A stretch of 38,238 nt of DNA from a virus, in the IMG/VR virus record IMGVR_UViG_3300043313_000897, positions 1 to 38,238 of that record; one strand, given 5' to 3'. Under the pieces are notes generated by a model. That model was not told where the DNA came from, did no database searches, and saw only the letters and a program-made list of their open reading frames with translations. Shown here piece after piece: positions 22,722 to 27,830 of the stretch. Within the stretch, counting starts at the first letter, position 1; each line of letters opens with the position of its first letter. The position numbers and the translations under genes are program-made.

Positions 22722-22991
22722 ATGGACCTGGATAAGTGGATGCTGTCGCGTGACCTGATCGACCAGGACGTCGCCGACGCCGTCGGCATCAGCCGCTCGT
22801 ACTTCACCCGCATCCGTAACGGCGTGGTTGATGTGAGCCTTAAGACGGCGCTCAAGATCGTCGACTTCTCTAAGGGGAGGGTCGACATTCGCTACCTCCT
22901 GCGGACGCCCGCCCGGCCCGGCTACGTGCGGCCAGATAGCGTTCGAAAGCGGCCTGCGCGGAGAGCTTCCCTAGCACGCGAGACTGCTTGA
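22722..22991 (+). CDS. XRE-family (Cro/CI-like) DNA-binding protein
   Basis: An 89-aa protein with one helix-turn-helix: MLSRDLIDQDVADAVGISRS (helices 1-2 and turn), then YFTRIRNGVVDVSLKTALKI (recognition helix and helix 4). A basic tail follows. The size is that of Cro or a short repressor; there is no peptidase or dimerisation domain. ATG 22722 has GGGA 9 bases upstream. It is the only rightward gene between two leftward blocks, and its 3' end overlaps the helicase gene by 122 bp. It probably binds the CATATG-type sites in the window (inference) and so may decide early or lysogenic expression. Confidence 0.8.
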   Translation: MDLDKWMLSRDLIDQDVADAVGISRSYFTRIRNGVVDVSLKTALKIVDFSKGRVDIRYLLRTPARPGYVRPDSVRKRPARRASLARETA

Positions 22992-24306
22992 GCTGGTCGA
23001 CCGTATCCTCTGCCATGCAGACATGCACCATGACGTGCGCCTCCTGGCCCGGCCTGTGCAGGCGCGCCAGCGTCTGGTCCCACATCTCCGGCGACCAGGT
23101 CGGCGCGACCCACGCCATGCGGCTGCCGCCATGCTGGAGATTCAGCCCGTGGCCGGCCGACGCCGGGTGCATCGCCATCACCGGCAGCTCGCCGCGGTTC
23201 CATAGGTCGACATAGCGCGCCGCCTTGACGTCGCTGACGCCGGATCCAAGGTAGGGCAGGTCGTCGCCGCAAAGCCGGCGGATCATGGCGAGGTCTTCCT
23301 GGTACTGGTAGACGACCAGCAGCGGCTCGCCATCCAGCTCCTCTATAAGGTCCGCAAGCCACTGCGACTTCTCTTCGTGCAGCGTGTGGGTGCCAGCTGC
23401 GCCGGCCTCGTCGTAAACGAATCCGTTGGCGATCTGCGCCAGCTTGCCGGTGGCGACGGCGGCCGACGCCGCCAGGATGTCCGCCTCGGTCAATTCGGCA
23501 AGAAGTTTTCGCTCCATGTCGTCATAGGCTTCGCGGGCGTCAGCCGGCAGCACGATCTTGTCGTAGATGATCGACAGCTCGGGCAGGCCGGGCATCTCAC
23601 CCTCTTCCAGGGCGATCGAGATCGTCGCAGCCTCGGCGAGAAGGATCGGCTCGCGGTGCTGGTGGATCAGCCACTTGTAGCCGTGGAAATCATGTGGATC
23701 CTTGTAGAAGTTCTCGGCCTGCCACTTGTAGAACGACCGCCCCCACAGGCGGCTGTCGGTGATGATCTTTATGGGGTTGAACAGGTCGGTCATGCTGTTG
23801 GGGCGCGGCGTGCCGGTGAGGCCCCAGCGATTGCGGAACCTGTGCGCAACTTTCGCCAACGCCTTCGCCCGTTTAGATGTCGGCGACTTCAGCTTCGATG
23901 TCTCATCGATCACCAGGCAGTCGAAGATCGGGTGATCGTCCGGCCATTTCTCGATCAACTCCAACAGCCACTGGACGTTATCGATGCCGACAATGGTGAC
24001 ATCGTATTCGGCGTTCGCCAGCTTCTTGACGCGCTGGGCGGGCGTGCCTTCCAGCACGGTATACGACAGGCTGCGCAGGTGCTCCCACTTCTTGATCTCG
24101 TCCGGCCATACCAGGTTGGCGACGCGCTTCGGCGCGACCACCAGCGCATGGCGGATCTCGCCGTTGTCGATCAGGTCGGATATAGCGGTCAAGGTCGAGG
24201 CGGTCTTGCCCGCCCCCAGCTTGAGCACGCAGAACGCTTCCGGGTTCTCGTAGAGGTGGTCGACGACGCGGACCTGGTACGGCCGCAGTTCCTCACGCTT
24301 GCGCAT
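22870..24306 (-). CDS. SNF2/DEAD-box superfamily 2 helicase
   Basis: A 478-aa ATP-dependent translocase of the phage SNF2-like type, acting on DNA during replication, recombination or repair. Motifs in order: Q/N-terminal RPYQVRVVDHL, Walker A KLGAGKTAST (residues ~29-38), motif Ia VVAPKRV, motif II VIDETS, motif III LTGTPRPN, then in the second RecA domain VVYQYQED, motif V ASAGHGLNLQ and motif VI LARLHRPGQ. The Walker A and DETS boxes are intact, so activity is expected. Its start overlaps the end of the cytosine methyltransferase gene by 14 bp, so the two are co-expressed. Its last 122 bp overlap the facing HTH gene. Confidence 0.92.
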   Translation of the reverse strand: MRKREELRPYQVRVVDHLYENPEAFCVLKLGAGKTASTLTAISDLIDNGEIRHALVVAPKRVANLVWPDEIKKWEHLRSLSYTVLEGTPAQRVKKLANAEYDVTIVGIDNVQWLLELIEKWPDDHPIFDCLVIDETSKLKSPTSKRAKALAKVAHRFRNRWGLTGTPRPNSMTDLFNPIKIITDSRLWGRSFYKWQAENFYKDPHDFHGYKWLIHQHREPILLAEAATISIALEEGEMPGLPELSIIYDKIVLPADAREAYDDMERKLLAELTEADILAASAAVATGKLAQIANGFVYDEAGAAGTHTLHEEKSQWLADLIEELDGEPLLVVYQYQEDLAMIRRLCGDDLPYLGSGVSDVKAARYVDLWNRGELPVMAMHPASAGHGLNLQHGGSRMAWVAPTWSPEMWDQTLARLHRPGQEAHVMVHVCMAEDTVDQLKQSRVLGKLSAQAAFERYLAARSRAGRASAGGSECRPSP

Positions 24307-25636
24307 CGACGACCTCCATCAGGCTTTCGATGAAGACTTTGGCGGCTATGCTGTTGATTGAATTTCCGTAGCCTCTGAGCCTGCCGATGCGCGCTTCGCC
24401 CGACTTGTCGGCATCGAACGGTGCGCTCGAATTGCTGCCTCGCACCAGCTCTTTGGCAGCGCTTGCAACCAGCGGGAATGTGCCGGATTCAACTGGCCGC
24501 CAGCGTCCATCCCGGCAGAAGAGCCAGTCAGAATTTGCCCAGAAGCCGTTAACCGGACCGGGCCCTCCTCCGTTGACCAGCCCGTCAGCTTCGCCGTTCC
24601 CGGCAGCTTCAGCACCGGCTTGTCGTGGTTGCCCTGGCTGTAGCAGTGGGTGCTGCCCTTGCTGTCGTTGTCCACCGGCGTCGGCCAGCCCGCCTGCTGT
24701 GCCGCGCCATTGCTGGTGTAATTCGTGCCGCCCCTGCCCATCGTGTGTGAGCCGCCCATCCCGTCCGTCGCCACCGGCGTCGGCCAGCCCGCCGTTCGTG
24801 CCGCGTCGTTGATCGTGAAGGTCCGCTCCGGGTTGCGGCGTTCCGGGTGCTGACCGTGACGCTCTCCCGCGTTCGCGTCCGGCGTCGGCCAGCCCGCTAT
24901 CTGTGCCGCCGCCTGAAGGTCGCCGCCCCCCGATTCCGTCCGGCCCAGTTGCTTCTTTCTCTCGCCGCTCTCCGCTCCTCCGGTCGGCGTGCGCGGCGTC
25001 GGCCAGCCCGCTATCTGCGCCGCCACGTCCAGCGTGTCCGTCGAGATCGCGCCGTTGCGCATCCTGCCGCCCTGGTAGCCGCCCTTGCCGTCGCGCGTCG
25101 CCGTCGTCGGCCAACCCGCCAAGTCTTGTTCCTGCCCACCAGAGCCTTTGCCTGATGTGGGGCGCGCCGACGAGCGCGCTGCTGGTATCGACCGCAGCGA
25201 AGGCGTAACCCTCTCCTTCCATTTCGTCACATACAATATCGAGCCAAGCGAGGCCGTCCTTGCTCGCAACCTGCTCGCCAATGACGACTGCAGGGCGGCA
25301 CTCGCCGATGAGCCAGCCGAACTGCGGCCAGAGGTGGCGGGAGTCGGAGGTGCCGCCGCGGGCGCCGGCGGCGGAGAAGGGCTGGCACGGGCAGGATCCG
25401 GTCCAGATTTCGCGGTCGTCTGGCCAGCCCGCAAGGCGAAGCGAATAGGACCAGACCCCGATGCCGGCAAAGAAATGGGCCTGCCGGTAACCGGCGAGAT
25501 CGGCTGGTTCAACCACTGCGATAGAGCGTTCATCGACATCACCGTCCGCTATGTGCCCAGCCTTGATCAGTTCGCGCAGCCACGCCGCAGCGAACGGATC
25601 GATCTCGTTGTAGTAGGCGCCACGCTTAGCACTCAC
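24293..25636 (-). CDS. DNA (cytosine-5) methyltransferase with GLADA-repeat target-recognition region
   Basis: A 447-aa C5-cytosine methyltransferase that should methylate phage DNA and protect it from host restriction. It starts at GTG 25636 (GAGGAG site), giving [20 protein letters not shown], the usual start of this phage subfamily. Motif I is FFAGIG (~55-60), motif [10 protein letters not shown] with Cys84, motif VI EQV (~121), motif [12 protein letters not shown] (~160-167) and motif [15 protein letters not shown] near the end. Residues ~172-330 replace the usual target-recognition domain with five GLADxx units 33-38 residues apart. The same DNA is open in another frame that also resembles a methylase (see the 24346-25542 entry). 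It is coupled at both ends to its neighbours. Confidence 0.88.
24346..25542 (-). other. Second long open frame overprinted on the cytosine methyltransferase gene
   Basis: A 398-codon open frame on the same strand as the methyltransferase but in another phase. It carries [40 protein letters not shown], repeated GWPTP units and [20 protein letters not shown]. To my knowledge this series is typical of the C-terminal half of another common prophage cytosine-methylase family (GWPTPTA repeats, then LNPxHSRWLMGLP). The GLADA repeats of one frame and the GWPTP repeats of the other come from the same nucleotides (GGCTGGCCGACGCC). No strong ribosome site precedes its first codons, so expression is uncertain; it may be an ancestral or frameshift-accessed reading. 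Confidence 0.5.
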
Positions 25637-25853
25637 GCCACGGCTCCTCTTTGTGGTCGTCGATACACCGCAGCACATTGTTGCCGTGCATGGTCACCGC
25701 ACCTTCAAGCTGCGACGGCTCGACCAGCGTTATCAATGCGATGGCGACGAGGTGGTCGATCATGGACAGCAGCAGGGGTACATCCCTGTCCGCCGCTGCA
25801 TCCATGAGGTCCAGGCATGATCTTATCGTGAGCCGATGGCTGTTATCTATCAT
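25626..25853 (-). CDS. Small accessory protein, unknown function
   Basis: A 75-aa protein with a helical hydrophobic middle (LLLSMIDHLVAIALITLVEP) that might be membrane-associated, though it contains a His and an Asp. It starts at ATG 25853, overlapping the upstream stop by 4 bp, and its own end overlaps the methyltransferase start by 11 bp. This tight coupling in the early operon argues that it is a real gene. No family is recognised. Confidence 0.65.
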   Translation of the reverse strand: MIDNSHRLTIRSCLDLMDAAADRDVPLLLSMIDHLVAIALITLVEPSQLEGAVTMHGNNVLRCIDDHKEEPWREC

Positions 25854-26079: not shown

Positions 26080-26139
26080 AAAAATTTTGCCTGTTTTTAA
26101 TGTTAGGGGACATATGTACCAATTACGGCTCCACGTCAA
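26080..26139 (-). promoter_or_regulatory. Leftward early-type promoter/leader element, copy C
   Basis: On the minus strand TTGACG (26139-26134) is followed after exactly 17 bp by CATATG (26116-26111), then TCCCCTAACATTAAAAACAG, AAAATTTTT and the AGGAG site of the zinc-ribbon gene. This is the only one of the three leader copies with an obvious sigma70-type -35 box. GGTACATATGTCCCC is the clearest form of the shared element. The -35 lies inside the end of the MT-A70 gene. Confidence 0.65.
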
Positions 26140-26836
26140 CTTCTTCCCCCCAAACATCCCAGTTGTCGCGGCGCACCCGCGCGTTCAGCTCGATCTTCGG
26201 CACGCCGGGGAAATAGTCCTCGATCATCTGCGCGAAGATTTCCGGCTTGGCCGAGTGCAGGCGTGACGGCGGGTCCGCGGCGATCACTGATTCCCACTGC
26301 GTGCCTGGCGCCGGCGCAGGCACTTTGCCGCGCGTGCCGATCAGCAGCACTTCGTGCTTCGACCGGTTCCAGAACCCCAAACCAATGCGTGGCTTCAGCC
26401 AGATGTAGTGGCTGCGGTAGGCGAAGCCGTAATGCGCCATCAGCGCTAGCGCTAACGCCAGGTGCTGGTTGGTCGTCCACATGAACATGGCGCAGTCATC
26501 GGCGGCCAGTGCGGCGACATCGCGCGCCTTCAGATCGTCATGCGTGCTGGTCGGATAGGGCGGCGCCTTGTTGTTGCCGGTCTTCTCCGACCACACCGAC
26601 TGCTTCCATTCGGGGTCGCAATAGATGACGCCATACTTGCGTTCCGGTAGCGCCAGCTGCCTGGCCGCCAGGCCGGCGACGCGATCGGCGCGTGCCTGCT
26701 GCTTGCGCAGCGTCTTGGCGTCCGGGTTGTCGCGCTTCTTTTTCTTGCGGTAGCGCTGCTTCTTTTCTGCTTCGGTCAGTCGACCTCGTTTGCGCAAGGT
26801 TGGACGACCGTTTTTCTTGGGGGGTTTAGTGGACAT
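26123..26836 (-). CDS. MT-A70-family adenine-N6 DNA methyltransferase
   Basis: A 237-aa SAM-dependent methyltransferase. The first 55 residues are very basic (KKQRYRKKKKRDNPDAKTLR) and probably bind DNA. The catalytic DPPW motif appears as DPEW (residues 74-77, IYCDPEWKQS), a variant also known in phage homologues. Further family blocks are AMFMWTTNQHLALALALMAH, YIWLKPRIGLGFWNRSKHEV, LLIGTRGKVPAP and KPEIFAQMIEDYFPGVPKIE. ATG 26836 is chosen for its MSTKPPKKNGRPT start and a GGTGG site, but this start lies in a strong hairpin. ATG 26884, 7 bp after the upstream stop and lacking a ribosome site, is the alternative. The likely role is anti-restriction or phage epigenetics. Confidence 0.85.
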   Translation of the reverse strand: MSTKPPKKNGRPTLRKRGRLTEAEKKQRYRKKKKRDNPDAKTLRKQQARADRVAGLAARQLALPERKYGVIYCDPEWKQSVWSEKTGNNKAPPYPTSTHDDLKARDVAALAADDCAMFMWTTNQHLALALALMAHYGFAYRSHYIWLKPRIGLGFWNRSKHEVLLIGTRGKVPAPAPGTQWESVIAADPPSRLHSAKPEIFAQMIEDYFPGVPKIELNARVRRDNWDVWGEEVDVEP

Positions 26837-26858
26837 TTTCTTGTCCACCAAACCCCCC
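26819..26858 (-). promoter_or_regulatory. 17-bp stem-loop over the ribosome site and start of the MT-A70 gene
   Basis: Arms at 26819-26835 and 26842-26858 pair over 17 positions with one G-U, closed by a 6-nt A-rich loop. In the mRNA the 5' arm contains the GGUGG ribosome site, and the AUG lies at the loop/3'-arm border. Folding would hide the start, so a translational control role is plausible. There is no U-run for termination. Confidence 0.55.
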
Positions 26859-26891
26859 TTCTCATCCCCCGATTTGCCGATCATTTCGCAA

Positions 26892-27830
26892 TTAGCCGAT
26901 GACCGGGAACGGATCCGACATGGTCCACTCGAAGGCGGCCTTGCCGACCGGCTTTTGCTTGCGGCGGAACATGTTCCAGGCAATGACGATCAGCGCGGCG
27001 CGGACCACGTCGTGGACGCGGCCGTGCGTCGCCGTCTCCAGCTCCTTGACACGGTTCTGCAGCAGCTGCAGCGGCTTGTAGCGGCCCGTCCACTTGCCGT
27101 TCTCCCAGGCGGCGGCGAAGTCGATGGTGTCGGCGGTATCGACCTGGTCGAAGTGGTAGAGCATTGCCGCCACCATGCCGACCGGCTGCTGCGACACCGA
27201 CCTGATGCGCCGCGCCGAGGTGATGAAGTCGGACACGCCGGAGTGGCGGTCCTTGTACATGTTCAGGATGGTCGGCGGGGTGAACGTCGTCCGCTGCTTG
27301 ACGGTCTTGCGCTGAATCAATTCGGCCCAGCGCACCGCCGCCGAAACGTCGCTGGCGTTGGCAATGCCCTCGATCGCCAGCAGGTCGGCGCCGCCGCGGT
27401 TCTTGCCCTGGTCCATGCGCGAGAAGTATTCGTCACCGATGCCGAACACGATGTGCGTGCGGAAGGCGGTTCCGGATTTAATGCAGGCCATCAGCCGGTT
27501 CTGGCCGTCGCGCAGGCGCTTCAAGTTCGAAAACTTGAGCGTGTCGCCGGTGAGAACCCATTCACCGGCGCCCATCGCGTCGGAATAGATGTTGATCGCC
27601 ATCGGCTTTATGGGGCGGTTGTCCAGGTTATATTTCTTGAGGATGTAGTCGGCCATGCCGGGTGTGATGGTGAAGATCCGGCTGTTTTCCGGCTCGTCCT
27701 TGATAAACCGCTCCAGCGCGTCGATCGCCTTGCGGTCGTCCGGTGACAGCGCCAGGTATGCCTGCGCGATCGGGTCGATGACCGCTTCGGGGATGGCGGT
27801 GGTGGTGTTCAGTTTATGCACTTCACTCAT
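26892..27830 (-). CDS. DGQNRL-motif (ParB/DGQHR-like) conserved phage protein
   Basis: A 312-aa protein. Its centre has ITPGMADYILKKYNLDNRPI, then SDAMGAGEWVLTGDTLKFSN, and RLRDGQNRLMACIKSGTAF followed by HIVFGIGDEYFSRMDQGKNR. The W-x-x-T-G-x-x-I/L...L-x-DGQ-x-RL-x-A layout with a later F-x-x-(M/I)D-x-G-x-x-R is shared by a large group of phage and plasmid proteins with a ParB-like N-terminal fold. The helical C-terminal half may oligomerise or bind DNA. The biochemical role is unknown. GGGAG precedes ATG 27830. It sits between polymerase and MT-A70 in the replication operon. Confidence 0.75.
   Translation of the reverse strand: MSEVHKLNTTTAIPEAVIDPIAQAYLALSPDDRKAIDALERFIKDEPENSRIFTITPGMADYILKKYNLDNRPIKPMAINIYSDAMGAGEWVLTGDTLKFSNLKRLRDGQNRLMACIKSGTAFRTHIVFGIGDEYFSRMDQGKNRGGADLLAIEGIANASDVSAAVRWAELIQRKTVKQRTTFTPPTILNMYKDRHSGVSDFITSARRIRSVSQQPVGMVAAMLYHFDQVDTADTIDFAAAWENGKWTGRYKPLQLLQNRVKELETATHGRVHDVVRAALIVIAWNMFRRKQKPVGKAAFEWTMSDPFPVIG

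Follow-up and report, generated by a model that had tools for sequence, protein, structure and literature searches.

To our knowledge, long overlapping genes on the same strand have rarely been demonstrated in bacteria or phages. The small chain of the C5-methyltransferase M.EcoHK31I is reportedly read from an overlapping frame. This enzyme consists of two polypeptides, the larger carrying motifs I-VIII and X together with the predicted target-recognition domain (TRD), and the smaller carrying motif IX (PMC3404938). M.AquI is also one enzyme made of two polypeptides, with a linear split into motifs I-VIII and motifs IX-X (PMC3404938). The small domain of C5-methyltransferases comprises the variable region and motif IX, and makes specific DNA contacts (PMC3404938). 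Several tandem TRDs are found in the Bacillus phage enzymes SPR, SPbeta, phi3T and H2, according to work cited in PMC8936443.

The window, i.e. the whole stretch of DNA analyzed here, is a virus record of 38,238 bases with a G+C content of 64%. On its minus strand, where all features given below lie, two frames of one gene are overprinted, a conclusion that is very secure and as certain as comparative data allow. Judged by sequence comparison, the locus is likely to encode a two-polypeptide C5-methyltransferase of the M.EcoHK31I type, with a large chain (alpha, frame A) and a nested small chain (beta, frame B) that carries motif IX and an array of cassettes.

The alpha ORF spans 24293..25678 (461 aa), and its true start codon may be internal to this ORF. 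Frame A matched PF00145 in Pfam with an E-value of 7e-11, above the cut-off, and phrog_363 in PHROG with an E-value of 2e-70; its best PDB relative is M.HhaI. The PF00145 profile, together with motif I (FFAGIG, 25457-25474), motif IV (PCQPF, including the catalytic PC, 25376-25390), motif VIII (APHIRQR, 25145-25165) and motif X (24356-24385), identifies frame A as a C5-cytosine DNA methyltransferase. With a motif VI-like GEQV at 25268-25279, all the motifs that an earlier note on this DNA had read in this frame were located. Five GLADxx units start at 25117, 25009, 24895, 24790 and 24691. A SNF2-type helicase gene (22870-24306) shares its first 14 bases with the end of alpha; a gene for an MT-A70-like adenine methyltransferase (26123-26983) is another neighbor on the same strand. 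An Rfam scan of the methyltransferase surroundings gave no match.

Frame B, which is +1 relative to frame A, is nested in alpha, and its longest open form extends over 24346..25542 (398 aa). It contains five GWPT(T/P) units, in agreement with the second same-strand frame of about 400 codons and five such units described in the earlier note. The single nucleotide motif proposed there to lie behind both types of repeat, GGCTGGCCGACGCC, was found in four exact copies, the first unit being a variant; the GLAD repeats are the GWPT units as read in the other frame. The N-terminal block of beta (25201..25302) overlaps alpha motifs VI-VIII, has its first conserved string at 25255-25302 and ends with WKERVTP (25201-25221). 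It is predicted to form a helix and a beta-hairpin, with a pLDDT of about 75-85. Cassette 1 (25009..25116) is of a type shared with phage N15, where it occupies position 2, and 13 other loci, and the type of cassette 2 (24895..25008) is found in locus L013. Cassettes 3 (24790..24894) and 4 (24691..24789) were assigned by frame and position and have no close relative in the collected set. Cassette 5 (24583..24690) shares its type with epsilon15 and Erwinia phage 59, in both of which it stands at position 2, and with others. The cassettes were missed by Tandem Repeats Finder, because the units are too diverged for it.

Searched separately from frame A, frame B matched phrog_31772 (1e-33) and phrog_1008 (3e-25), both labelled DNA methyltransferase; it matched no family in Pfam or NCBIfam, and a sequence search of the PDB gave no match. 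Two AlphaFold models of beta alone were of low confidence, and a Foldseek search with the smaller one returned nothing below an E-value of 0.5. Motif IX was assigned to 24445..24492, overlapping the segment 24470-24499, since hhalign pairs the near-invariant end of beta, at a probability of 93%, with motif IX as it occurs in frame in the single-chain methyltransferases of mycobacteriophages. In addition, a beta profile matched the part of WillSterrel gp71 that lies between motifs VIII and X and holds its PTPxxxDG units and motif IX; the E-value is indicative only, given the small search set. Motif IX is present in frame B and absent from frame A, where motifs I, IV, VI, VIII and X are found, which is the layout of the M.EcoHK31I type.

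Frame B of the window stays open for 400 codons, compared with 174 +/- 56 codons in synonymous shuffles of A, and 0 of 5,000 shuffles reached 400; the open length of the third frame was not unusual in this test. Homologues were collected from viral contigs, annotated phages and, later, bacterial genomes. Nearly all viral-contig loci were found with frame-A peptides and are thus unbiased for B, and the bacterial-genome loci were found with frame-B motifs and are thus unbiased for A. From motif VIII to the end of motif IX in 65 loci (11,267 codons), frame B contained 1 stop, where synonymous shuffles of A predict 103.6, and frame A contained 0 stops, where synonymous shuffles of B predict 224.7. 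In the third frame there were 647. Because the 65 loci are partly related, the count was redone on 30 non-redundant loci sharing less than 25% of 12-mers, over a span that opens 13 codons after PCQPF and closes 17 codons beyond the start of motif IX. Frame B again had 1 stop, against 113.9 expected, and the third frame was at or above expectation. Outside this core span of the non-redundant set, frame B stops were at or above expectation, with 66 versus 55 expected before position -43 and 42 versus 28 after motif IX. In the other direction, frame A had 2 stops versus 323 expected in 75 bacterial-genome loci found through B. Each frame is thus open beyond what the other one forces, as in a genuine overlapping gene pair. 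Two loci, L003 and L059, have one in-frame stop in frame B and an intact frame A, making them candidates for natural loss of beta, or for sequencing error. Three of the 75 genome loci found through B (L109, L166 and L171) have an open frame B and a clearly shortened frame A, of 193, 246 and 181 codons, respectively.

Substitution rates at A codon positions 1/2/3 were.13/.12/.46 in the N-terminal part,.15/.09/.27 from motif IV to VIII,.31/.19/.21 in the cassette region,.21/.11/.11 at motif IX and.18/.15/.40 after motif IX. As A position 1 is B position 3, the freest position is A3 at first, B3 within the cassettes and motif IX, and A3 again afterwards; the change begins directly after PCQPF. 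We also estimated dN/dS with our own overlap-aware implementation in the style of published overlapping-gene methods, and give point estimates without errors because the pooled locus pairs are non-independent. The values for A and B were 0.09 and 0.79 before motif IV, 0.26 and 0.42 from motif IV to VIII, 1.12 and 0.21 in the cassettes, 0.24 and 0.33 around motif IX, and, family-wide, 0.12 and 0.81 at motif X. In the cassette region, the two ratios dNN/dSN and dNS/dSS were 1.12 and 1.00 for A, and 0.21 and 0.18 for B. Purifying selection was therefore found on each frame: B lies at 0.21-0.42 inside the overlap and at about 0.8 outside it, and A at 0.09-0.26 everywhere except in the cassettes. 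These results show that A alone is selected up to motif IV and at motif X, B alone in the cassettes, and both frames from motif IV to VIII and around motif IX. With both frames open and constrained across dozens of diverged loci, the proposal of the earlier note that the gene family has been overprinted is strongly supported.

Long alternative frames are common in G+C-rich DNA, frame B lacks a Pfam or NCBIfam match, and several records annotate the wrong frame or a single one, so that frame B might be a shadow, a chance ORF in a G+C-rich gene kept by mis-annotation. The two-way stop counts, the codon-position rates and the dN/dS values rule this out, with one B stop where about 104 are expected given A, and B at 0.21 where A is at 1.12. 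The two-frame pattern is moreover present in N15 at 52% G+C, the third frame is ordinary in the non-redundant loci, and we consider a shadow ORF extremely improbable. Composition in the window itself flips at the same place as the codon-position rates, the G+C content at A positions 1/2/3 changing from.61/.54/.68 ahead of motif IV to.84/.64/.63 in the cassettes.

The central part of frame B consists of consecutive units of about 35 residues, mostly 29 to 42, each opening with GWPTP or a variant of it; the arrays hold one to five such tandem, mosaic cassettes. Clustering 170 units at 50% identity gave 17 recurrent types and 22 singletons, and 13 of the 17 recurrent types were found at more than one array position. 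When translated in frame B, the window cassettes and their homologues are 73% identical; in frame A the figure is 36%. Differences amount to.27/.19/.52 at B positions 1/2/3. Picking the homologues by their similarity in B biases the identities, but has no obvious effect on the position pattern. Judged from these alignments, the recurring, shuffled unit is conserved in B, not in A.

The dN/dS values of 1.12 for A and 0.21 for B imply that the GLAD repeats are passengers and the GWPTP repeats the selected sequence. The earlier note had taken the five GLADxx units as the target-recognition region; the units are indeed there, but with an A dN/dS of about 1.1 they do not behave as a selected TRD. 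One may still place the TRD in the GLAD part of frame A and let beta add only motif IX, with the cassettes serving stability or assembly, for example. The predicted TRD of M.EcoHK31I is in the large subunit (PMC3404938), which is a point against assigning specificity to the cassettes, and frame A does stay open throughout the cassette region. However, amino-acid constraint there is seen in B and not in A, and the units are conserved in B rather than in A, albeit among homologues chosen by B, so we regard a GLAD-borne TRD as unlikely.

Of 67 loci, 58 have an internal TTG thirteen codons after PCQPF, often with AAGGAG six bases upstream; at this family start position, N15 shows GGAGG ahead of TTG-ATG. 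These signals suggest that beta probably starts internally in most relatives. A single protein could also be made by programmed frameshifting from A to B and back to A, joining the catalytic domain, the cassettes, motif IX and motif X; motifs I-VIII and X do lie in A and IX in B, and the mycobacteriophage relatives carry all motifs in one chain. Yet such a product would require two shifts, and frame A would not need to be stop-free in the cassettes (0 versus 225 expected) if it were skipped there. Between motifs IV and VIII, and again around motif IX, the same bases are constrained in both frames, and an internal B start with an SD-like site is present in most relatives, all of which makes frameshifting quite unlikely.

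The nested two-chain arrangement has a counter-point in the window, where the start shared by the family is absent: no TTG, no ATG and no SD-like site was found at that position. The best-scoring canonical candidate is an ATG at 25531..25533, which would give a beta of 395 aa and for which the upstream GCGGACGGTGATG has an anti-SD energy of -7.0. From position -42, B stops are less strongly depleted (5 versus 18.7 expected in the non-redundant set). As this depletion comes without visible amino-acid constraint, a longer beta is possible in part of the family. The missing site could mean that the family arrangement is real and that beta is no longer expressed in the window. However, frame B is intact over 400 codons there, its motif IX is conserved, and the codon bias in its cassettes is of the B type. 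Most of its differences from relatives fall on B position 3, and the upstream ATG has a fair SD-like site. A silent beta in the window is thus improbable.

Phage records with frame B number 186. The N15 version, used as the query, retrieved 15 plasmid records, and two strict patterns retrieved 234 loci, mostly from Proteobacteria, in a genome collection at species level. Both frames are also present in Tunturiibacter phage Tunturi_1, whose host belongs to the Acidobacteriota (L178:1781-2900). Usually one frame is annotated, and sometimes it is the non-catalytic one. Among ten phage records read closely, only A is annotated in five (N15, EBPR siphovirus 2, RcKeef, epsilon15 and Erwinia 59), only B in three (phiKX1, BAU.Micro_SLP-22 and Tunturi_1), and both in two (PhiXhv-28 and K1H). 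The annotations of Tunturi_1, L087 and L090 give frame B only and leave out an intact catalytic frame A. L090 at first seemed to hold a stand-alone beta gene, a reading we dropped because its frame A is intact and merely unannotated. In gp44 of EBPR siphovirus 2 (L085:1485-3980), an intein-like insertion of ~370 residues lies inside alpha motif IV; it sits after PC, and alpha resumes with HNCQPFS.

Frame B had earlier been taken for the C-terminal half of a second, common prophage methylase family. It does form a family, which stands apart in databases because frame B is annotated alone (3/10 phage records) or beside A (2/10), but it is the nested partner within the same gene family. This explains two unrelated-looking 'DNA methyltransferase' families in phage databases; many records annotate only half of the enzyme, sometimes without the catalytic half. 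The alternative that frame use has been switched on and off found no sign in the window or in its proteobacterial relatives, in which both frames are maintained together.

Under the two-chain arrangement, alpha would supply the catalytic domain, with SAM binding (motif I), the catalytic cysteine loop (motif IV) and motifs VI, VIII and X, and would be translated straight through the cassettes as a stop-free passenger, the GLAD repeats. Beta would supply the helix-hairpin block, the GWPTP cassettes and motif IX, and with them the remainder of the small domain contacting the DNA target; the two chains would assemble into one enzyme. We infer the specificity function of the beta cassettes, each of which may be a TRD. 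If so, the methylated targets, up to five here, would be altered or multiplied whenever cassettes are gained, lost or exchanged, and multiple targets may protect the phage genome against several restriction systems. On the whole, we lean toward such overprinted specificity, in which exchangeable second-frame cassettes with one DNA target each are swapped by recombination and both frames are kept open. The likely specificity determinant would then move from the usually annotated frame to the other frame, and the methylation targets of hundreds of prophages would become predictable from a catalogue of cassettes. With dozens of diverged loci, the division of labor between the two frames is legible base by base.

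Compared by published description, the locus shares with M.EcoHK31I (YGGCCR) the same split of conserved motifs over two chains. It differs in that the TRD of M.EcoHK31I is assigned to the large subunit, whereas here the variable region is constrained in the beta frame and consists of arrays of exchangeable cassettes; the new element is this modular, probably multispecific beta. Unlike in M.AquI, where motif X is in the small subunit, it is carried here by the large alpha. Escherichia phage K1H resembles the locus in that both frames of one gene, ORF28 and ORF29, are annotated as DNA methyltransferase, and the literature searched held no analysis of their function or constraint. In the open-access literature covered, no account of overprinted cassettes in a phage methyltransferase came up; the coverage was partial, which makes this absence weak evidence.

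The modules of the multispecific Bacillus phage enzymes are similar in size to the cassettes described here. Their domains lie in a single catalytic chain and frame, whereas those proposed here lie in a second, nested frame. The mycobacteriophage enzymes WillSterrel gp71 and prophiGD91-2 gp27 have PTPxxxDG units followed by a motif IX like that of frame B, but a single frame encodes their catalytic motifs, the units and motifs IX and X. In some of these single-chain enzymes a further unit was found in the +1 frame. PTP-type units in the +1 frame, with motif IX in frame A, were observed in some actinophage enzymes (L173:1678-2832 and L176:1612-2676), one such unit in prophiGD91-2 and several in Gordonia phage JKSyngboy. 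The cassettes thus seem to have moved between frames during evolution, and the single-frame version in mycobacteriophages makes a frame change on a longer time scale likely.
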